Position numbers and translations under genes: made by a program. The notes under the pieces were generated by a model. It had not been told where the DNA came from. It saw only the letters and a program-made list of their open reading frames with translations, and made no database searches. DNA of 64,000 nucleotides, from contig MSDW01000002.1 of assembly GCA_001914405.1 (NCBI GenBank), forward strand, positions 248,001 to 312,000, written 5' to 3'. Below, piece after piece: positions 11,341-56,969 of the stretch. Source of the DNA: Candidatus Methanohalarchaeum thermophilum (lineage in GTDB: Archaea > Halobacteriota > Methanonatronarchaeia > Methanonatronarchaeales > Methanonatronarchaeaceae). Numbering within the stretch: position 1 is the first letter of the stretch; each line of letters begins with the position of its first letter.

Positions 11341-13014
11341 TATATTACTTTCGGTCAAAAACCCAACAAACACAAAACAAAACCCACAAAAAACCGCTAA
11401 CAAAAAACAAAAACATCCACATTATAAAAATAAAACATAAAAGAAACCAAATTAACCTAACTACGAGATACATAAAAAAATAAATTAAAAATTTTAGCTA
11501 CAGAACCCACACTAAAAACAGATCTTCGGAGACGAAATTTATTAAAGAAATCAACTTATGTACCCAAATTTACTAAAACTAGTTTAATAAAAGTTTAGTA
11601 GATAGAACAAATCAAAAGACCATGCCTTTTAATTTAAAGGCCATTGAACAATTTTTTACTTTAATTAATTGTAAATAAGCTCAAAGATTAATTCTATGAA
11701 AGATATTCCTACCTTAACCTCTTTTAATCTGACTCTATAAAAAAATAAGAATTCGCTTTTATCTCATTAAAGTAATGGTGAACTAGCTCTACCTTACTTG
11801 ATTTTCGCTCGGGAAAGAAAAGGAAAGGGATTTCAGGAGAAGACTTAGACACAAACAGTTTCCCTATTCTACTCGGTGTGGCCATACCACCTACTTACAC
11901 TCTACTGATTCGGGTTTATCCCAATGCACAATATTCAGGCCACCATTCACATTAGGATTAATCAAATTACTATTATTTGTCTATTCAAAGACATCTATCC
12001 GAATTGGGGGCTAATGGCTGTGCCCGAAACTCCAGCAGAGAAAAGTGAAGCAAAATGCAAAAACAGTATACGACTGGAAAAAAACCCCTATACTCTAACC
12101 ATAGGAGAAATTAGATGTTACTTTATCTGAATTATCAAATATAATTTTTGTATCTAAAGTTTTTGTGTATCCTCCAACTAAAGATAAAGAAAAATGGTCT
12201 TAATAAAAAAACTACGAGATAAAATACCTTAACCTAGGCATAACCTGTTGAATATAGTTTTCTCTTTTTTTCGTTGAATTATGAGGTAAGAATGAGGAAA
12301 GTGGGGGATGAAGGTATTCTAATTGTTGAGGGAATCTGTTATTTCTGTGATATTGAAGAAAGGGAACTAGGTTCAAAGCCCAATAACTGAGGCAGGTCCA
12401 AAGGAAGGTAATTTATGCTGGAAAGAAACCAGTTATTCACCATATTTTAGATGTTTTAAGAGAAGAGAAAGGGATAAAATAGAGTTTACTAATATTTTAG
12501 TAGAATAGGCATTAGGCAATGGATTATGTTGGTTCTGGAGAGAAATATGAATTGGAAACGTGTTATTGGATCTAGGAAGAGGTAAAGAGAACTGCAGATA
12601 CAATAAATTTAGTTTATAAACCATATAACCAACGAAAAATACATAGTAATGCATGAGGGATAATTATATCTGGCCCTACCAAGAAGAGAAGGAGATAATC
12701 AACTACTACAGGAAGATAATGAAGCCAAAGAATATCGTTGCTCCCGAATCCCACAGATAACCAACAAAATAGAGGATTATTGGCCTAGACAAAGGCAAAG
12801 ATATCAAAGGAATGATTTAAAAAATCAAGTCTAAAAGAAGTGGAATCACCTAAAACAACCTGGCTATTGGCTCAATATCTAACTTATTTTCTTGTAAAAT
12901 TGATTATTTTTTCTTCTGATACAATAGTCATTTTTTCCCAACAAAAGGTTATTTTTCTCATAAGATACAACCCTATTTACAAGACCATTATAAGAAAGTT
13001 TTTTTTAGGAATTA
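11341..13014. other. Gene-poor decayed stretch
   Basis: No intact gene is visible in 1.7 kb. Short open stretches look once-coding on the plus strand, for example around 12000-12130 (WGLMAVPETPAEKSEAK) and 12428-12480 (AGKKPVIHHILDVLREEKG), and 12660-12840, all interrupted by stops and frame changes. I could not assign any to a family. The stretch is continuous with the decayed tRNA, AbrB-like and caspase-like pieces that follow. Confidence 0.4.
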
Positions 13015-13090
13015 GGGTCATATTACTAGTCTGGACAAGTTGACGGGCTTCGGAGCCGTATATTTAGGGTTTAGATCCCTCTTGAGCCCT
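13015..13090 (+). pseudogene. Degenerate tRNA-Arg(UCG)-like sequence
   Basis: The stretch can be laid out as a tRNA. A GGGTCA 5' end faces TGAGCCC at 13084-13089 with one base missing from the acceptor. The D-arm contains TAGTCTGGACA, and the anticodon stem-loop is ACGGG-CTTCGGA-GCCGT, where CTTCGGA is the usual loop of arginine tRNA with anticodon TCG. A five-base variable loop and a T-arm AGGG-TTTAGAT-CCCT follow. The T-loop lacks the conserved TTC, the D-stem has a mismatch and the acceptor is short by one base, so I call it a decayed copy or an attachment-site remnant, not a working tRNA. Confidence 0.45.
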
Positions 13091-13182
13091 TATTCGTTGA
13101 AGTTCAATATCACCCCAATTTTTTACTTTTTTTTACTTATTTCTCCGTTTTTTATACAATTAATACATTGATTTAGATTTTG

Positions 13183-13335
13183 TTGAATTTGGGAACTAGA
13201 AAACTGCAACAAAAAAAGATGGCAGTTACCAAATTATCTTACCCAAAGGTATGGTAGAAGGCCTTGGATGGGGAAAAAGAAGACAAAATAGGTTTTAGTT
13301 ATGAAAGTGGTGTGTTGTTCCTAAAAAAGAGTTAA
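13183..13335 (+). pseudogene. AbrB/SpoVT-type DNA-binding domain, frameshifted
   Basis: Translation gives KKDGSYQIILPKGMVEGLGW, then after a one-base change GKEDKIGFSYESGVLFLKKS and a stop. This is the looped-hinge AbrB pattern (S-x-x-I-x-L-P-K-x-x-V-x-x-L-G-W-x-x-G-D-x-I). The frame breaks at a G4 run (13270s) and again at an A7 run near 13211; shortening the first and lengthening the second by one base would give a 50-residue ORF from TTG at 13183. Either real decay or homopolymer sequencing error fits. Such proteins are regulators or antitoxins. Confidence 0.5.
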
Positions 13336-13639
13336 AGAGATTTATTAGTGTTGCTAGGCCATAAAAGAGATATATTTCTCGATATTTTTTTTTCTTGGCT
13401 TATTTTATGTTTATTTTTTTTAGGTTTGGGAAAAGTTATTTTCCTTGTCATTCAAAACAAATAAGAGTCTTGGATGGAGTTTAGGTCGTGGAGTATTTCT
13501 AGTCTAGTTGAAATTACGTAAACTCGTTTCAGATCACTCAAAAACAATATTTGTCCTCAGCGCTTTTTTAATAACAATTATTTTAATTTCTCCCTTACCT
13601 ACTTGGCTAAATCAAATCCAAAGTGATTCAAAAGAAATG

Positions 13640-14294
13640 TAGGAACAGGGGGACAGGTCGCAGTACTCGCCAATTCCCAGAACAAGGAAAAAACTTCACT
13701 GAAAAAAAAAAACAATTGAACTCTTCAATGAAAGAGGTGTTGAAGTAGATGTTTTCAATAATATTACTGTGGATTTGTATAGGCGGTTACCTGGCTTAAA
13801 TTACAAGGTCATTATCTTTATCTTTAGAGTTCATTTTACAACTGATATAAGGAGTGAAGAATTTGATTACAAGTCTTCATTATTTACAGAGGAAAAGTAT
13901 GAGTCTTCTAAGTATCTAGTTCTGCAGTCAAAAAAGCTGTTGTTGCAGGGTGTTTTTGAAGAGAAAAGAGTTTTTGCAGCCACATATAAGTTTGTGTCAA
14001 CAGAAATGGAAGGAGAATTCAATGACACACTCGTCATCTTTGACAGTTGCCACACATTCACCCTAAGCAACAAATACAAACTTATACAAGCCTTTTTATG
14101 AAAAAGGAATTAAAGCCGCTATAGGTTGGCAGGGTACAGTGACACTTGAACAAGGAGACAAAGGAACACTAAAGCTCTTAAAACACTTATTTGATGACAA
14201 AACATTGAAAGAAGCTACAGTAGAAGTGGAAAAAGATCTCGAAAAAGACCTAGAATACAACGCAACCATCAAAGTTTCAGAAAAAAGCACATAA
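13640..14294 (+). pseudogene. Caspase/CHAT-like cysteine-protease relative, frameshifted
   Basis: Three frames join into one protein. The first holds NERGVEVDVFNNITVDLYRR and an IFRVHF segment; the middle holds VIFDSCHTF; the last holds YEKGIKAAIGWQGTVTLEQG and ends at 14294. An FRVH histidine followed by a hydrophobic strand ending D-S-C is the order of the catalytic His and Cys in caspase-like folds (clan CD), which is the basis for the tentative call. Frame changes sit at an A11 run (13701-13711) and a T5 run (14093-14097, where four T would read QAFYEKG). The original start is unclear. Family identity is uncertain. Confidence 0.45.
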
Positions 14295-46977: not shown

Positions 46978-47967
46978 TTAGATTAGTGGTTGATACCAGT
47001 CTTTGTTTTCTTTATACCAATTTATGAATTTATTTATTCCTTCACTTATCTCGGTTTCTGGTGAATAATCTATTAATTCGTTGGCTTTTGTTGTATCTGC
47101 TAAGGTATGGCTGACATCTCCTTTCCTTTCCTCTGAGTACTTTGGTTTTCCTTCATATCCAGTTTTTTTAATTATTTTTTGAGCTAATTTGTTTATGGTT
47201 ATTTTTTTTCCGCTTCCGATGTTTATTGTTTCTCCGTCTGCTTGATCGGTTTTTAATAGTTTTAGGTTTGCTTTTACTATGTCTTTTATGTATGTGAAGT
47301 CTCTTGTTTGTTTTCCATTTCCGTATATTTCTGGGGGCTTATTGTTTAGGCATCTGCTTACGAAGTTGGATATTGCCATGTTTGGTCTCATTCTTGGTCC
47401 GTATACTGTGAAGTATCTTAGGTTAACTGTAGGTAGTTCGTATAGTTTTTTGAATATTTGAGTGTATTTTTCTGCTGATAGTTTGCTGACTGCATATGGG
47501 CTGACTGGGTTTTCTTTGGCTTTTTCTTTAAACTTTTTTTTATTTATGTCTCCGTATACGGATGAAGAAGAAGCATTAATAAATCTTTTTGCTTCTATTT
47601 CTGATGAAATCTTTAATAGGTGTAGTGTTCCTAAGATATTTGTTTTTGCTGGTTTAATTGGGTTTTTTACTGAGGTTCTGACTCCTGCTTGTGCTGCCTG
47701 GTGAAAAACAAAATCTGGTTTTATTTTTTTGACTTTTTTTTCTAGTGTTTTAAAGTTAGTTATATCTAGGTTAATGAAATCTAGTTCTGAACCTGTTTTG
47801 TTTGCTATTTTTCTATTTTTGGCTAGGTTTTTTTTCTTTAGTTTCTTCGAATAATATGGGTCTAGATTATCTATAACTGCCACATTATATCCTTTTTTTA
47901 AGAAAGCAGTGGTTAAATGGGACCCTATGAATCCTGCTCCGCCTGTCACCAGTATGTTTTTTGGCAT
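46978..47967 (-). CDS. NAD-dependent nucleotide-sugar 4-epimerase (UDP-glucuronate epimerase-like)
   Basis: This extended short-chain dehydrogenase has the Rossmann motif ILVTGGAGFIGSHLTTAF at 5-22, HQAAQAGVRTSV near 89 typical of UDP-glucuronate 4-epimerases, SSSSVYG near 131, catalytic Tyr-x3-Lys in SPYAVSKLSAEK, and FTVYGPRMRP. It likely interconverts UDP-glucuronate and UDP-galacturonate, using the product of the UDP-glucose dehydrogenase nearby. A UDP-glucose epimerase is the alternative. It lies 17 bases upstream of the GT2 gene at 46031. Confidence 0.82.
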   Translation of the reverse strand: MPKNILVTGGAGFIGSHLTTAFLKKGYNVAVIDNLDPYYSKKLKKKNLAKNRKIANKTGSELDFINLDITNFKTLEKKVKKIKPDFVFHQAAQAGVRTSVKNPIKPAKTNILGTLHLLKISSEIEAKRFINASSSSVYGDINKKKFKEKAKENPVSPYAVSKLSAEKYTQIFKKLYELPTVNLRYFTVYGPRMRPNMAISNFVSRCLNNKPPEIYGNGKQTRDFTYIKDIVKANLKLLKTDQADGETINIGSGKKITINKLAQKIIKKTGYEGKPKYSEERKGDVSHTLADTTKANELIDYSPETEISEGINKFINWYKENKDWYQPLI

Positions 47968-48800: not shown

Positions 48801-49736
48801 TCATTTGAAGTATTCTATTGTTTTTTGTAGGCCCTTATTTAGGTCTGTTTTTGGTTTCCAATTTAATTTTTGTTTTGCTTTAGTTATGTCTGCTTTTCTT
48901 CTTTTTGGATCGTCTTTAGGTAGTGTTTCATAGGTTATTTCTGGTTCGTTTTCTATTAATGACTTTATTTTTTTAGCTAGATCTATTATTTTAATTTCCT
49001 TGTTACTTCCTAGGTTAATTATTTCTCCTGTTGTATCTTTTTTCCTCATAGCTTTAATTAATCCCTTTATCATGTCATTTACGTAACAGAAGCTTCTTGT
49101 CTGTGTTCCATCTCCATATACCGTAAGTGGTTTGTTATCTAATGCTTGTGTTACAAAGTTAGGTATTACTCTTCCATCATCTCTAGCCATTCTAGGGCCA
49201 TATGTATTAAAGATCCTAATTATTCTAGCGTCCACTCCGTTTTTTATGTAGTTTGTGGTTATTGATTCTCCCAGTCTTTTGGATTCATCGTAGCATGATC
49301 TTGGTCCATTTGGATTGACATTTCCCCAATATTCTTCGTTTTGTGGATGTTTTTCCGGGTTCCCATATACTTCGGATGTTGAGGTAAATAAGAACTTTGA
49401 GTTTTTTTCTTTTGCTAGGTCGAGCAAGTTTTTTGTTCCTAGGGAGTTAGTCATCGCTATCTCGATTGAGTGGTCTTTAAAATCTCTTGGTGATGCTCTG
49501 CTTGCAAGATGAAATATCTCATCAAATTCTATATCAGGTAAATCGAATTCGTCTCTAATATCTCCTTTGATAAAATGAAAGTCCTCTTTTTCATTTAGGT
49601 GCTTGATGTTTTCTTTTCTACCACTACCTAAGTTATCAAAGCAATAAACCTCTAAGTCTTCCTCAATTAATTTATCGCATAGGTGGGAGCCTAAGAATCC
49701 TGCTCCTCCAGGAACTAATGTCTTCATTTTTTTCAA
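48801..49736 (-). CDS. UDP-glucuronate decarboxylase (UDP-xylose synthase)-like
   Basis: The 311-residue extended SDR matches UXS landmarks: HLASRASPRDFKDHSIEIAM near 72-91, TSTSEVYGNPEKHPQNEEYW near 119-138, GPRSCYDESKRLGE with the catalytic Tyr-x3-Lys, and RIFNTYGPRMARDDGRVIPN. The glycine motif reads VPGGAGFLGSH, with Pro where Thr is usual. It would convert UDP-glucuronate to UDP-xylose. Its start overlaps the end of the nucleotidyltransferase gene at 49733 by four bases. Confidence 0.85.
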   Translation of the reverse strand: MKKMKTLVPGGAGFLGSHLCDKLIEEDLEVYCFDNLGSGRKENIKHLNEKEDFHFIKGDIRDEFDLPDIEFDEIFHLASRASPRDFKDHSIEIAMTNSLGTKNLLDLAKEKNSKFLFTSTSEVYGNPEKHPQNEEYWGNVNPNGPRSCYDESKRLGESITTNYIKNGVDARIIRIFNTYGPRMARDDGRVIPNFVTQALDNKPLTVYGDGTQTRSFCYVNDMIKGLIKAMRKKDTTGEIINLGSNKEIKIIDLAKKIKSLIENEPEITYETLPKDDPKRRKADITKAKQKLNWKPKTDLNKGLQKTIEYFK

Positions 49737-50737
49737 AACTCCAATTTACTATTATCTCCTATGTTTAGGCTATTTTTTTCTCCTGTTACTTCTGCTTCTT
49801 CACCAACAATACTATCTACTAAATTTATGTCCTTTACTTTACTTCCTTTTCCCAAGATTGTGTTTTGGACAATGCTGTTCTTGATTTCTACATGATCTGA
49901 AACAGATACATTTGGACCGATTATACTATTTTCTATTTTGACATTTTCGCCAACATAAACAGGTTTGTTAACTAAGGAGTGTTCGAATTTATTTATTTTG
50001 TAGGTATTTTGTTTTAATAGGGTTTTATTTGCTTCTAAGAGAGTTTTTGGTCTGCCACAATCGTACCAATCTTTTACCTCAAAGTTACCAAGTTTTACTC
50101 CGTTTTCGACCATTTGTTGAAGTGCATCGGTTAACTGAAACTCATTTCCCTTTCCTCGGATCTCGTTTTCGATCAAATATTCTAGGGAATTAAATAGTTC
50201 TTTGGTGTTTTCTATTATGTATACTCCACTTATTGCGTTGTTACTTTCTGGTTCGTCTGGTTTTTCTTCTAATTTTTTTATTGAATTATTTTGGATGGTT
50301 GCAATACCGTAGTGGCTTGGTTCTTTTACTTTTTTTATTCCAATAGAACCATCTAAGCCTCCATCTTTTTCGTGTTCCAAGATAAATTCATTGTATCCTT
50401 TTTCAAAGATCATGTCACCTAAAGCGATTATCACAGGCTCATCATTGACTACATCCTTAGCTTGATATATTGCGTGGCCAAGCCCTTCTCTGTTATCTTG
50501 CTCAACATAATAGATTTCATTAAATTTGCTTCCAAATGCGTTGTCAACATAGTCTATTAATTGTTCTTTCATGTACCCAACTACCAAGACTACCTCATTT
50601 ATCTTTGATTGCTCAAATCTATCTAATATGTGTCCTATGACTGGTTTACCTGCTAATTCAACCAAGGGCTTAGGCTTAGTGTGCGTCTGAGGATAAAGAC
50701 GAGTCCCCTTACCAGCTACAGGTATAACTCCCTTCAA
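49733..50737 (-). CDS. Nucleotidyltransferase with beta-helix tail (glucose-1-phosphate UTP/dTTP type)
   Basis: The 334-residue protein joins a nucleotidyltransferase domain (VIPVAGKGTRLYPQTHTKPK at 4-23, ALGDMIFEKG near 105, EFQLTDALQQMVENG near 197) to a left-handed beta-helix tail (about 250-330). This is typical of archaeal UDP- or dTDP-glucose pyrophosphorylases. It likely makes UDP-glucose for the dehydrogenase encoded seven bases upstream; the next gene is the UXS-like decarboxylase, so the order UDP-glucose, UDP-glucuronate, UDP-xylose is encoded together. Confidence 0.85.
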   Translation of the reverse strand: MKGVIPVAGKGTRLYPQTHTKPKPLVELAGKPVIGHILDRFEQSKINEVVLVVGYMKEQLIDYVDNAFGSKFNEIYYVEQDNREGLGHAIYQAKDVVNDEPVIIALGDMIFEKGYNEFILEHEKDGGLDGSIGIKKVKEPSHYGIATIQNNSIKKLEEKPDEPESNNAISGVYIIENTKELFNSLEYLIENEIRGKGNEFQLTDALQQMVENGVKLGNFEVKDWYDCGRPKTLLEANKTLLKQNTYKINKFEHSLVNKPVYVGENVKIENSIIGPNVSVSDHVEIKNSIVQNTILGKGSKVKDINLVDSIVGEEAEVTGEKNSLNIGDNSKLEF

Positions 50738-50743
50738 ATTACA

Positions 50744-53401
50744 TCACCAACAAATCCCATCACACTTATCTAATCTTCTTCCCTCAACACAAGGAACATC
50801 TATATCTAAATCATTATACTCTTCCCAATCAGTTAACAACAAACAACCATCTATTTTACTTAACAACTCAGTAGCATCTTCAAAATATTGTATATCTGGA
50901 AATATTTCTTTTGTATTCTTTATTGCTTTTGGGTCATGTGCCAATATCTCTGCTCCTCTGTCCTTTAGTTCTTTTATAACTGGTATTGATCGACTATTTC
51001 GTATGTCATCAGTTCCTGGCTTAAAGGCCAAACCAAGAACACCTATCCTCTTATCTTCTAAATCACCTATTTTTTCTTCCAATAATTTTGTTATTTTCTT
51101 AGGTTGTTCTTTATTTATATTTAAAACTGATTTTAGTATTTTTGGTTTGATTCCAAGTTTTTTTGCTTTTTCTTTTAGGGCTTTTACATCTTTTGGGAAG
51201 CAGTTATGGGTTATTAATCCATTGGTTGTTACAAAATTGTGTTCACTATTCATTTCTATCGAATAGACTATTGTCTCCTTGTTTTTAGTTGAAATATTTC
51301 TTATTTTAACTGTCGTATAATCTTTGGTTTTTTTGTGGCCAGTAGGCTGGATCTCTTTATCATAATTATTTAGTCTTTCCTCTATTTTTTCTTGATCTTC
51401 TCTTAGAAATATGTCTTTTAGTTGTTTTATTTGTTTTTTTCCACTGATACGTAAGAAATGAGCGTCTTTTGTTGATTTTTTTGATCTTGATGTTTTATAA
51501 CTTGGAACTATATCTAAACTATGTAATAAGAACTGCATTCCCCTTATTAATTCCTCGCTAACTGATCCATATGAGAATACTACAGCATTTGTATGGGATG
51601 GATAAGCTATATGGCCGTCTCCTCTGAATAATCCACTTAATAAAGCTTTTTTGTTTTCTTTTGATTCTTGATAAGCTTCAGATGGTAATTTGGCACTATA
51701 AGATCCTTTTCCACACTCTAAATGCTGTGATAGAAAGTGGGCAAGGATTCTTGAAGAAAAAACTATTTCAGTCGAAGTCTCTTTTTTGTTTATTCTATAC
51801 TTAATCCCACACCCAGTTAAGAAATCAATGACTTCTTCTACATATTCTTCTTCATCAGTTGGATGAAAACTAATAATTATTCGTTTCCGTGGATTTTTGC
51901 CATGACCAGAGTCATCTATGTTTATATGGCCCTCGCTTATGTAGTAGCCTATGAATCTCCAAAAATCCTTATCTGCTGCTAGTATTGCTGGAACCAATGT
52001 TGCATTACCTTTGGTTGTATAAATTCTAAAATCACTTCTTTTTAACCCTAAGTCATCTTCTATTCCTAAAAAAATATCAAGAGGTAAGTAATTTCCCCTA
52101 ACAAAGTCATATACCCTATCATAGCTAAAAGAACTATTATAGTCTCTTAAGTTTTCCCTCAACCCATCCTTCAACTTAGATAAATCAAAATTAGGTCTTA
52201 AATACACTTTCTCATCGTTAAAAGAACCAGATTCTTTGATAACCTCAATCAAATCAAAAGAACCTACAGGGTCCTCAGGAATCTCCCTAAGCAAAGGCAA
52301 CCTATCCCCTGTCTTTAATTTACCCGCCTTCTTTACTTCAATATCTTCTCCATCAAAAACTAGCATTGGATGATCTGCCGTAACCTCAATCTTTTTATTC
52401 ATACTAGTCTCGACTTCAACAATTTCTCCGTCATATTCCCTTTTAATCGCAGCCTCGACCTCCTCAAAACTAAAGCCCTCTCCCTTTTTGCTCAAAACCC
52501 TAACATCACCCAACAAAGGAGAATCAACATATCTATCAAAAAAATCCACAAAAGAAACTAAATCAACCTCGCCCCCATCCTTAACCATAATCTCTTCACT
52601 ACCCACCAAACAGCTACCACCAAAGCCAACACCAGAATCCAAAAAACTCCGATTTACCCTATGATCGAGTCCTACAGCGTCCATTACTTCGTAGCTATCT
52701 ATATTTAACTGCTTGCATAGGTTTCCTATTTCGTTTGCAAAACTAATTTTGGTCGCTAGGAGTGAGTTGTTTGCGTATTTTATCATTTCTGCTGTACGAA
52801 TATCCGTTTCAAATAAACTTGTTTCAGGAATTAGTTTTCTATAAGCATTTTTTAGTTTTTTTCTTGTTTTTTGTTGACCTCCTAAAACTAGTTTGTCAGG
52901 TTCCATGAAGTCCTTTACTGCAGAACCTTCTCGTAAAAATTCAGGATTCATCCCCAAAAACAAATCTTTATTCAATTCCTTGCTGGATTTTTTTTCAACA
53001 AGCTCACCAATCCTTTCAGTTGTCCCTGGCACAACCGTACTTTTAACCACAACAAAATGACTTTTATTTTTGCTCTGAAGGGTTCGTCCAAGTTGGTCAG
53101 CAGCTTCTTCGATTATTGAAAGATCGATTTCTCCACTTTTTTTAGCTGGTGTAGGTAAACATAAGAAAGTTAATTCAGTATCTAATATGCTAGAGTAATC
53201 TGTAGATCCTTTAAAATTTTTTCCTAAGTGTTTTTCTAGGAGATTTCCTAATTTGGGTTCGTGTATGTGTAACTCTCCACTATTCAAGGAATCAACAACT
53301 TCTTTATCAATGTCTATATTAGTTACTTCATTTCCTAGTTCAGCTAAACATAATGCCGTTGTCGTTCCTACATAACCTGATCCTATTATGCTGATTTTCA
53401 C
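50744..53401 (-). CDS. ugd: UDP-glucose 6-dehydrogenase precursor with intein
   Basis: The mature enzyme oxidises UDP-glucose to UDP-glucuronate with NAD. The precursor is 885 residues. Its extein parts are 1-263 (NAD-binding IIGSGYVGTTTALCLAELGN, then FLREGSAVKDFMEPDK) and 734-885, which join to 415 residues, the usual length. The junction lies in the active-site motif GGS-CFPKD: the intein begins at Cys264, and the catalytic cysteine is Cys734, the +1 residue needed for splicing. The enzyme is therefore inactive until the intein leaves. It heads the UDP-sugar operon. Confidence 0.92.
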   Translation of the reverse strand: MKISIIGSGYVGTTTALCLAELGNEVTNIDIDKEVVDSLNSGELHIHEPKLGNLLEKHLGKNFKGSTDYSSILDTELTFLCLPTPAKKSGEIDLSIIEEAADQLGRTLQSKNKSHFVVVKSTVVPGTTERIGELVEKKSSKELNKDLFLGMNPEFLREGSAVKDFMEPDKLVLGGQQKTRKKLKNAYRKLIPETSLFETDIRTAEMIKYANNSLLATKISFANEIGNLCKQLNIDSYEVMDAVGLDHRVNRSFLDSGVGFGGSCLVGSEEIMVKDGGEVDLVSFVDFFDRYVDSPLLGDVRVLSKKGEGFSFEEVEAAIKREYDGEIVEVETSMNKKIEVTADHPMLVFDGEDIEVKKAGKLKTGDRLPLLREIPEDPVGSFDLIEVIKESGSFNDEKVYLRPNFDLSKLKDGLRENLRDYNSSFSYDRVYDFVRGNYLPLDIFLGIEDDLGLKRSDFRIYTTKGNATLVPAILAADKDFWRFIGYYISEGHINIDDSGHGKNPRKRIIISFHPTDEEEYVEEVIDFLTGCGIKYRINKKETSTEIVFSSRILAHFLSQHLECGKGSYSAKLPSEAYQESKENKKALLSGLFRGDGHIAYPSHTNAVVFSYGSVSEELIRGMQFLLHSLDIVPSYKTSRSKKSTKDAHFLRISGKKQIKQLKDIFLREDQEKIEERLNNYDKEIQPTGHKKTKDYTTVKIRNISTKNKETIVYSIEMNSEHNFVTTNGLITHNCFPKDVKALKEKAKKLGIKPKILKSVLNINKEQPKKITKLLEEKIGDLEDKRIGVLGLAFKPGTDDIRNSRSIPVIKELKDRGAEILAHDPKAIKNTKEIFPDIQYFEDATELLSKIDGCLLLTDWEEYNDLDIDVPCVEGRRLDKCDGICW
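51203..52612 (-). mobile_element. Intein with LAGLIDADG (DOD) homing endonuclease
   Basis: The intein is residues 264-733 (470 residues) of the precursor. It starts CLVGSEEIMV, has the splicing block B VTADHPML with His344, and ends ITHN with His732-Asn733 before Cys734. A homing endonuclease is inserted: DOD-type motifs FIGYYISEGH (near 483-492) and LLSGLFRGDGH (near 588-598). The first has Glu where Asp is standard in one position, which many such enzymes accept. The endonuclease looks intact, so the intein may still be mobile. Confidence 0.9.
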
Positions 53402-53614: not shown

Positions 53615-54541
53615 CTATTTTTTGGATAGTATTTGGTAGTTTCTTTCTTTTTTCTTATCCAGATTTACTTTGTCGGTTATGATGTTTTTTAGTCTTGAGT
53701 TTTTTATTGTTGAGTTGATTATTATGCAGTTTTTTAGTTTGGAGTTTTTTATTTCTGAGTTTTGTGCGTAAACGTTTTCTAGTTCGGAGTTTTGTGTTTT
53801 TGTGTTTTTTGTGTGGTTTTTTTGGTTTAGGATGGTTTTGTTTGCTCTTAGGTAGCCTTTGGGTGTTCCTATGTCGAACCAGTCGCCACTGAATTTGTAG
53901 GCTCTTAGGTGTTGGTGCTGTAGTAGCCATTCGATGAAGTAACCTGGGCTTTCTGGGTTGTTGTCTTCTTTTATGTATTTGTTTAGTAGGTCGAGTTCGT
54001 TTTGTCTAAATACATAGTATGCGATTCCTGCTAATGTTGATGGTGGCTTGTTTGGTTTTTCGACAAAATCCACTACCTTGTTGCTTTTTAGTTCTAGGAT
54101 GCCGTATTGGTTTGCTTCGTCTCTTGGGATGTTGTATGCTGCTATTAGTGAGGAGTTGTTTTTTTGGTAGTAATCGATGAAGTCTTTGATCTCGAAGCTT
54201 GCGTAGTTGTCTCCTGCTGCTACTAGTGGTGTTTTTGGGTTTTTTTGTTTTGTTACTTGGTGTAGGGCTGCGATGGCTCCTTGCTTCTCTTCTTCTTTCT
54301 TAGAGTCTTTCACGACTACTTCGGTTTTTTGGTAATTTTTTTGTTGTATGTGTTGTTGGAAATCGTTTCTAAATCGTTTGTTGGTTGATAAGTAGATTGA
54401 TTCGATTGTTTTTTGGTTCTCTAAGGGTTCGAGGGTGTAGTCTATTTTTTTTGTTTCCTAGAGATGTAATGATTTGAATTTGTCATCTGTCAGGTGCCAT
54501 AAGCGTGTTGCGAATGCTTCCACTAATACTACGGCATCCAT
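53615..54541 (-). pseudogene. Nucleotidyltransferase (glucose-1-phosphate type), dead
   Basis: From ATG 54541 the frame reads MDAVVLVEAFATRLWHLTDD, a relative of the usual L-A-G-G-x-G/A-T-R-L-x-P-L-T, but the GG is replaced by EA, Pro by His, and the K-P by K-S. A TAG follows at residue 28 and the same frame continues IDYTLEPLENQKTIESIYLS. The part open from GTG 54313 carries VAAGDNYASF, VDFVEKPNKPPSTLAG, WFDIGTPKGYLRANKT and an Asn/Lys-rich beta-helix tail. Loss of catalytic residues plus nonsense argue for real inactivation. Confidence 0.7.
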
Positions 54542-54681
54542 ACATTAAATTCAAAGTACTCTTTACCTAGACTTACTTAAAAAAAGGTTGAGCTAAAAAA
54601 ATGATTCAATAAAAGATTTATGTTTCCTATAACGTTTAATAAGTGATTTTGAGGAATAAATTGGTTATATTGGGTTGAGCT

Positions 54682-55248
54682 GAATGGCTTGATGTTGGTA
54701 GGCCCTGGGACCTATTAGAAGCGAATGAAGCTAAAATGAAGGGATTAGGTAGAGAGATAAGGGGAAAAGTAGAAGATGATGCAAGAGTTAAGGGAGATGT
54801 AGTTGTTGAGGATGGTTCAGTTGTTAAGGATGGTGCCTACACAGAAGGACCAACATATATTGGCAGAGACGCAGTGGTTGGCCCCAATTGTTATTTAAGA
54901 AAAAACACTGTCTTAGAGAAAAACGTTAAAATAGGTAATGCCGTAGAAGTAAAGAACTCCATAGTCTCTGAAAACACAAACATTGGTCATCTTAGCTATG
55001 TTGGTGATAGCGTAATAGGAGAAAACTGTAATTTTGGAGCTGAAACCAAAGTAGCTAACCTAAGACACGACGAAGAAAACATTAAAGTCAATAATAAGGG
55101 AAGGGAAGTGGATACTGGTAGACGTAAACTAGGAACAATCATGGGTGATAACGTAAAGACTGGGATTAATACTTCAATTAATTGTGGAGTTAAAATTGGA
55201 TCTGGTGAAAACACGAGGCCCGGTGAAGAAGTTATGGAGGACAAATAG
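54682..55248 (+). pseudogene. Truncated nucleotidyltransferase/acetyltransferase, C-terminal half
   Basis: From 54682 the frame reads EWLDVGRPWDLLEANEAKMK, the end of a GlmU-like nucleotidyltransferase domain, and continues from ATG 54736 into a left-handed beta-helix (VVEDGSVVKDGAYTEGPTYI, NCYLRKNTVLEKNVKIGNAV type repeats) with NINTS- and GVKIGSG-like turns to 55248. The roughly 220-residue catalytic N-terminus is absent and a TGA precedes the remnant. The beta-helix part (170 residues) could still be translated. Its end is abutted by mobile element E0. Confidence 0.65.
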
Positions 55249-55592: not shown

Positions 55593-56969
55593 GTGAACTA
55601 CCCCTACCTAATCAGGGATTAGGAAGAGGGCTTCCCTGTTCAACCACATGACTTACTGGAATCGAAGTGGTTCCAGCAGAGGTCATTGTGTCTGAGGGGT
55701 TTGACTTCGGACAGTCCCTGCCCTACCAAACCTATAGCCCTATTCACAACATTTATGGCGGCATTCAAATCACGATCAATCTCTAAACCACATACTTTAC
55801 ACTTATGTTCCCTATCTGATAGTTCTTTATCCACCTTATTACTACAACTTGGGTTTGAGCAACTTTTTGTGGTGTTTTTTGCTTCTACCTCTACATACTT
55901 GCTTACCAGCTTGTGAAGCTTTGTAAGCAAGCATAGAGACGAATTCATTCCAAGCATGATTAGCTATATGTCTATTTAGGGCACTACTCTCCCCTTCCGA
56001 TAAGTTCTTACTATCCAAATCCTCTACCGCTATCACATCGTATTTGTCGCTATATGCTCTTGATAGTTTATGTAAGAAATCTCTTCGTGCATCTCTCAGT
56101 TTTTTGTGGGCTTTCGCCAATTTTTTCTTTTGTTTCTTCCAGTTGTTGCTTCCTTTCTCTTTCCTCGATAACTTCTTTTGTTCTTTCTTAACTCTCTTGT
56201 ATTTATTGTATAACAAGTTTTTTAGGTCCTGTATTTCTCTGTCTTCGCTGTCAGTTAAGAAGTTGGATACGTTTAGGTCTATTCCTATTATGTCGCTATC
56301 TTCTGTAATTGGTTTTTTATCAGGCTTTGGGACTTCTATCTCGAGAATAACTTTCCAGTCACCGCAACTGTATTCTTTTATTACTACGCCTTTAACTTCA
56401 GCGTCTTTTGGGATTGGTCTGTGGAAGTTTACGGGTATTTTCCCTATTTTTGATAGATGTATGATTTCTTTTTGTTGGTTTATTTTGTAGCCTGATTGGT
56501 TGATTTTCGATGCTGTTTATTGAATTCTTGTATCTTAGTTTTCCAACTTTTTTTCCTTTCTCTTTTTTTGTGTTTAAGGCTTTGATTGCGTCATATATTC
56601 TTCCAATGGTTTGTTGAGCAGTATTCTTCCAATGGTTTGTTGAGCAGTCTTTGAATACACGTTTTGGAATTCGGGATTTGATGTTTTCTTCCATTTTGGG
56701 AGTTTGTTGTACATCTCGTATATTTGGTATCCATTCACTTGATTCGTTTAATGTTTCTAGTGCTTTATTGTAGATGTCTTTGTGTATTTTGAAGTGCTTT
56801 TTCAACTCTCCTTTGTTTTCTTCTGTAGGATGGGCATCGTATTTGTAAGAAAGTGATTGAGTCATCCCATCACTAATTTATGGTTTTATGGTTTAAGTGG
56901 TTTGAGGTTTTTAGTTGATTCATCCCCTACCAAACCTTTGATTTAGAAGGGTTTTTCTCAACCATCAAG
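55593..56969 (+). mobile_element. IS200/IS605-type element E1 carrying tnpB (no tnpA)
   Basis: The 1377-bp element begins GTGAACTACC with hairpin CCCCTaCCTAATC-AGG-GATTAGGaAG (55601-55628). It ends with a degenerate hairpin near 56924-56952 and TTTCTCAACCATCAAG. tnpB lies on the minus strand, its 3' end at the GT end. The flanks rejoin a MazF/PemK-like gene (HPF-Y-R-I-D). The target read on the minus strand is TTTAT. TnpA is absent, so it depends on a transposase elsewhere. Confidence 0.7.
55640..56865 (-). pseudogene. tnpB: TnpB RNA-guided nuclease, frameshifted
   Basis: TnpB is the RNA-guided RuvC nuclease of IS605-type elements. Joined frames give an N-terminal MTQSLSYKYDAHPTEENKGE, a RuvC-I Asp in IGIDLNVSNF, RuvC-II Glu in VEDLDSKNL, a C4 zinc finger (CSNPSCSNK, HKCKVCG), and RuvC-III Asp in LEIDRDLNAAINV. 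The gene is broken by 4-base insertions near 56500 and 55895, which look like small duplications and not homopolymer errors. There is also an exact 26-bp tandem duplication at 56597-56648 that keeps the frame open. All catalytic residues remain. It is probably dead, though its RNA could still be made. Confidence 0.8.

Follow-up and report, generated by a model that had tools for sequence, protein, structure and literature searches.

The 885-residue open reading frame with a GTG start that occupies positions 50744-53401 on the minus strand of the window (the whole 64,000-nucleotide stretch of DNA analysed here) encodes a UDP-glucose 6-dehydrogenase (UGD) split by an intein. We consider it very probable (roughly 0.95) that this element is a class 1, full-length LAGLIDADG homing intein of the known 'udp' allele, residing in the only UGD detected in its methanogen host. 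The presence of mcrA marks the genome as that of a methanogen, and Methanohalarchaeum belongs to the Methanonatronarchaeia (PMC9071458). The UGD intein is thus not new; rather, a published allele gains a further host. The gene is laid out as follows, with invariance scored across 17 aligned UGD inteins:

52613..53401, minus strand: N-extein, residues 1-263, ending in ...GVGFGGS; NAD-binding and central domains
51203..52612, minus strand: full-length intein of 470 aa (residues 264-733) with a HINT splicing domain and a LAGLIDADG endonuclease (profiles, alignment, fold)
52610..52612, minus strand: Cys1 of the intein (Cys264), block A nucleophile; invariant in 17/17
52370..52381, minus strand: block B TADH, intein T78-H81; T78, D80, H81 and P82 invariant in 17/17
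51920..51949, minus strand: first LAGLIDADG motif GYYISEGHIN, acid E227; G222, E227 and G228 invariant in 17/17
51605..51634, minus strand: second LAGLIDADG motif GLFRGDGHIA, acid D332; R330-G333 invariant in 17/17; Pfam LAGLIDADG_3
51203..51208, minus strand: block G His469-Asn470, followed by the +1 Cys; invariant in 17/17
50744..51202, minus strand: C-extein, residues 734-885 plus stop, beginning at the catalytic Cys of CFPKD (domain matches, 3vtf alignment)

The split enzyme and its intein

Pfam places UDPG_MGDP_dh_N at residues 1-181 of the open reading frame (E 1.2e-53) and UDPG_MGDP_dh_C at residues 787-868, while the central UDPG_MGDP_dh domain is matched in two separate stretches, the best of which stops at residue 266. 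Removal of the intein leaves a 415-residue enzyme of normal form with the motif GGSCFPKD. This spliced sequence matches the nucleotide-sugar dehydrogenase model TIGR03026 in a single continuous stretch (450.7 bits; cut-off 189.8) and aligns across the junction with the solved UDP-glucose 6-dehydrogenase 3vtf (E 5.9e-96). The AglM model NF041297 is its best family, yet the score of 547.9 bits lies below the curated cut-off of 670; since only the TIGR03026 threshold is passed, the enzyme is filed here simply as UDP-glucose dehydrogenase-type. In the UDP-glucose dehydrogenase family, catalysis uses the Cys of GG-x-CFPKD as its nucleophile. Because the flanks join to GGSCFPKD, the catalytic Cys of the enzyme is also the +1 nucleophile of the intein.

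The junctions read GVGFGGS/CLVGSEE and NGLITHN/CFPKDVK, the slash marking the splice point. NCBIfam TIGR01445 (intein_Nterm) starts exactly at residue 264 (44.2 bits; cut-off 24.5), Pfam Intein_splicing (PF14890) reaches residue 733 (70.4 bits; cut-off 35.8), and LAGLIDADG_3 (PF14528) lies at residues 584-661 (55.3 bits; cut-off 22.5). The matches of both intein and host domains far exceed chance. The original prediction had placed the intein at 264-733, from the first Cys of GGSC to just before the C of CFPKD, and these limits hold to the residue. Its proposal that the catalytic Cys serves as the splicing nucleophile of the C-extein agrees with the junction HN/CFPKD and with the alignment of spliced GGSCFPKD to 3vtf. 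The alignment of 17 members also contains both sets of motifs that it expected, those for splicing and those for homing, and the DOD endonuclease motifs are intact as it had described, with E227 and D332 in place.

Thus, the element combines the hallmarks of a class 1 intein, namely a Cys at position 1, a TxxH block B, a C-terminal His-Asn followed by Cys, and flanks that join to a complete host protein, with those of a LAGLIDADG homing endonuclease, namely two motifs with an acid in each. Y450-S451 is invariant as well. The one departure from the typical class 1 pattern is in block F, where Ser451 stands in place of Asp; since all 17 members carry Ser, this is a trait of the family and not a sign of decay. 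Some splicing-competent GyrA inteins carry Ser at the same block F position. The block F Asp is listed in a review among the highly conserved intein residues that assist step 1 (PMC10663303) and, being described as highly conserved, was counted here as typical, not as a requirement for membership.

The intein fold predicted by AlphaFold2 from the 17-member alignment has a pLDDT of 87 and a pTM of 0.89, with pLDDT below 50 only at residues 331-334. In a Foldseek search with this model, PI-PkoII (2cw7) was the best match (E 4e-28), the TliVMA intein (7qss) and PI-PfuI (1dq3) were among the first four, and I-DmoI was matched as well. PI-PkoII, the TliVMA intein and PI-PfuI share with the UGD intein the HINT plus LAGLIDADG architecture but differ from it in host, and sequence identity is only 14-18%. 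The intein is present and, judged by its sequence, looks intact, with predicted splicing and endonuclease functions.

A decaying element, with the endonuclease or splicing domain dead and persistence by vertical descent only, is an improbable reading of the window copy, which is of full length, with an uninterrupted frame and with the two acids and all splicing residues in place, although decay does occur in the family: in the relative L086, SEGH has become SAGQ, so that the first LAGLIDADG acid is gone, and the frame is shifted. This copy lies in genome G520 (contig C7, about 12078-13754), which is 82% complete, and the frameshift falls in the endonuclease domain. A natural split intein was considered for L086 and is unlikely, as the only start codons of the downstream open reading frame before the C-terminal intein half are GTGs within the endonuclease domain, and the break resembles a simple frameshift; decay or sequence error is the likelier cause.

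For the window intein, the following course would be expected. After translation, Cys1 of the intein would attack the Ser263-Cys264 bond; the +1 Cys, i.e., the catalytic Cys of the enzyme, would then take over the thioester on its thiol; Asn470 would cyclise with the assistance of His469; and an S-to-N shift would yield GGSCFPKD, the active dehydrogenase. At the DNA level, the endonuclease half would target the strongly conserved intein-free junction, and we propose that the intein spreads and is lost patchily for this reason. Splicing, endonuclease cutting and the inactivity of the precursor are predicted here by analogy with the intein family.

Relatives and patchy distribution

Soucy et al. 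(2014) described the 'udp' intein allele in UDP-glucose 6-dehydrogenases of 7 Halobacteria, 2 bacteria and 6 other Euryarchaeota, with Methanocaldococcus jannaschii NP_248048.1 among its members (PMC4071816). The window intein is likewise located in UDP-glucose 6-dehydrogenase, and its insertion residue is shared with 15 genomes that have intact junctions and with an Aquificota MAG. The host protein is the same and, besides halophilic archaea and methanogens, the hosts in both sets include a few bacteria; set against the published members, which were compared by their description, the present host is a methanogen from a class with few sequenced genomes.

Seventeen other genomes of the phylum carry a copy of the UGD intein (E < 1e-60). 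In 15 of them both junctions, GGS/C...HN/CFPKD, are intact at the identical residue, with 51-54% identity to the window intein; of the remaining two copies, L080 is split across contigs and L086 is the frameshifted one. An insertion unique to this genome is therefore rejected, other genomes using the same site. The 17 UGD inteins of families f10 and f20 (L060-L064, L075-L086), which from their sequences and named plasmid relatives are probably haloarchaea, have the same insertion residue and motifs, measure 470-475 aa and, except for L086, differ from the window intein by sequence divergence only. The UGD intein of the Aquificota MAG (L059, JAADES010000023.1) occupies the same GGS/C...HN/CFPKD site and is 451 aa long and 30% identical. 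The nearest inteins in other host proteins, at about 26-32% identity, belong to Tes radical-SAM lipid synthases (NF045703, L017-L019) and PurL-like proteins (L015, L016), and lie in other genes and at other sites; the best intein-bearing NCBIfam profile for the UGD intein is the Tes-with-intein model. The two PurL-like inteins, found in genomes G287 and G160, share about 30-32% identity with the one in UGD. A UGD of genome G514 that stops at the insertion site merely reaches the end of its contig.

An AglM-type UGD is present in 143 of the 170 genomes of family f20, and 15 of them, about 1 in 10, have the intein; in f10 the UGD intein is found in 2 of 26 genomes. The comparison with intein-free homologs suggested by the original prediction thus reveals an intein-free majority. 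In the extein tree, intein-free UGDs are nested among intein-bearing ones, and the intein label takes 6 changes as compared with 12.4 in shuffles. Between pairs of f10/f20 members, mean identity is 68.2% for the extein and 68.1% for the intein (r 0.86). Read from these sequences, the patchy distribution is what a homing element that is in part co-inherited would be expected to show. Genome G485 contains two UGDs (contigs C74 and C100), one with the intein and one without it, and the DNA of its intein-free junction has diverged from that of the intein-bearing one.

Carriage by viruses or plasmids was considered and rejected: the viral contigs searched hold no relative of the UGD intein, phage records gave only weak matches of 25-30% in four records, and the plasmid UGDs among the matches listed are intein-free, with no record covering 80% of the precursor.

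As for the origin of the gene, it is possible, and compatible with a 'udp' homing intein, that the UGD gene and its intein were acquired together from a haloarchaeon-like donor, as opposed to the intein having invaded a resident gene; we regard this as somewhat less likely than not. The window extein clusters with the UGDs of the intein-holding families (support 99/97), whose inteins are also the closest to that of the window, and UGD was found neither in the sole other genome of its family nor in the sole other one of its class. The gene may therefore have arrived with its intein. The two UGD-less genomes are, however, incomplete (93% and 78%), and both branches are long, so that vertical inheritance from a shared ancestor accounts for the data just as well.

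Genome context and the question of regulation

No second nucleotide-sugar dehydrogenase was found in the genome, which is 95% complete, and a backup enzyme is accordingly rejected. UGD heads a run of genes on the same strand, with sugar-nucleotide genes downstream:

49733..50737, minus strand: sugar-1-phosphate nucleotidyltransferase, candidate UDP-glucose pyrophosphorylase, separated from the upstream UGD stop by 6 bases (PF00483; TIGR01208, TIGR03992, AglF-like)
48801..49736, minus strand: probable UDP-glucuronate decarboxylase (UXS), with a 4-base overlap with the nucleotidyltransferase gene (PDB matches)
46978..47967, minus strand: nucleotide-sugar epimerase, UDP-glucose/UDP-glucuronate 4-epimerase group (best PDB matches 4zrm, 4.5e-60, and 6zl6, 2e-55)

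The UXS candidate matches UDP-glucuronate decarboxylase 1 structures (4gll/2b69) at E 1e-92, the next family following at 5e-40. From these assignments, the run reads as a path from glucose-1-phosphate through UDP-glucose and UDP-glucuronate to UDP-xylose, which is its likely product. The sole detected dehydrogenase, taken with this path, makes it plausible that the supply of UDP-glucuronate hinges on splicing. To this extent the dependence on splicing claimed in the original prediction stands; the dependence of enzyme activity itself would follow from a precursor that is predicted to be inactive.

The original prediction also raised a regulatory role, with salt, redox and temperature as the conditions of interest. 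In such a reading, the intein would be kept because it splices in response to these conditions and thereby gates the supply of UDP-glucuronate and UDP-xylose. Consistent with such a switch are the status of UGD as the only nucleotide-sugar dehydrogenase detected, the coincidence of the +1 nucleophile with the catalytic Cys, the similar identities to f10/f20 homologs of the intein (51-54%) and the extein (45-53%), and a published case of splicing that depends on salt, in an intein of Halobacterium salinarum (Reitter et al. 2016, as cited in PMC10663303). We nevertheless judge a switch very unlikely. Sensor features were not seen: Cys1 is the sole invariant intein Cys among the 17 aligned, and the residues at -1 to -3, GGS, include no Cys. 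Moreover, an intact endonuclease accounts for persistence, and the intein-free majority of orthologs in f20 indicates that a switch is not generally needed. As far as distribution can tell, patchiness speaks for a homing parasite more than for a switch that has been retained. It is similarly hard to credit that conditional splicing, responding for example to intracellular salt, governs how much UDP-glucuronate and UDP-xylose this organism has for its surface glycans, even with no other nucleotide-sugar dehydrogenase detected.

Other elements and implications

The same genome (G000, L070-L074) is rich in inteins; from its open reading frames as read, at least six more are present, in RNA polymerase A'', MCM, GyrB, topoisomerase VI B, the large subunit of DNA polymerase II and a DinG/XPD-like helicase. 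In the window, a nucleotidyltransferase at 53615-54500 (minus strand) has no N-terminus, and a degenerate start, MDAVVLVEAFATRL, lies upstream of it with stops after it, which marks a decayed gene. At 54500-55248 (plus strand), an archaeal GlmU is represented by its C-terminal half, which is the acetyltransferase part, with a stop-ridden stub of the N-terminal domain upstream; this is probably a gene remnant. TnpB/IS605-type transposase fragments in different frames, recognised by eye at 55640-56865 (minus strand), represent a broken insertion element.

Through the UGD intein of this methanogen, an allele already known to cross domains gains a further host lineage. The intein is also one more that is seated on the catalytic residue of a host protein, and losing it imprecisely would abolish the enzyme. 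If its splicing were conditional, control over uronate-containing glycans would be exerted at this single gene; if not, the intein is a mobile element of the ordinary kind.
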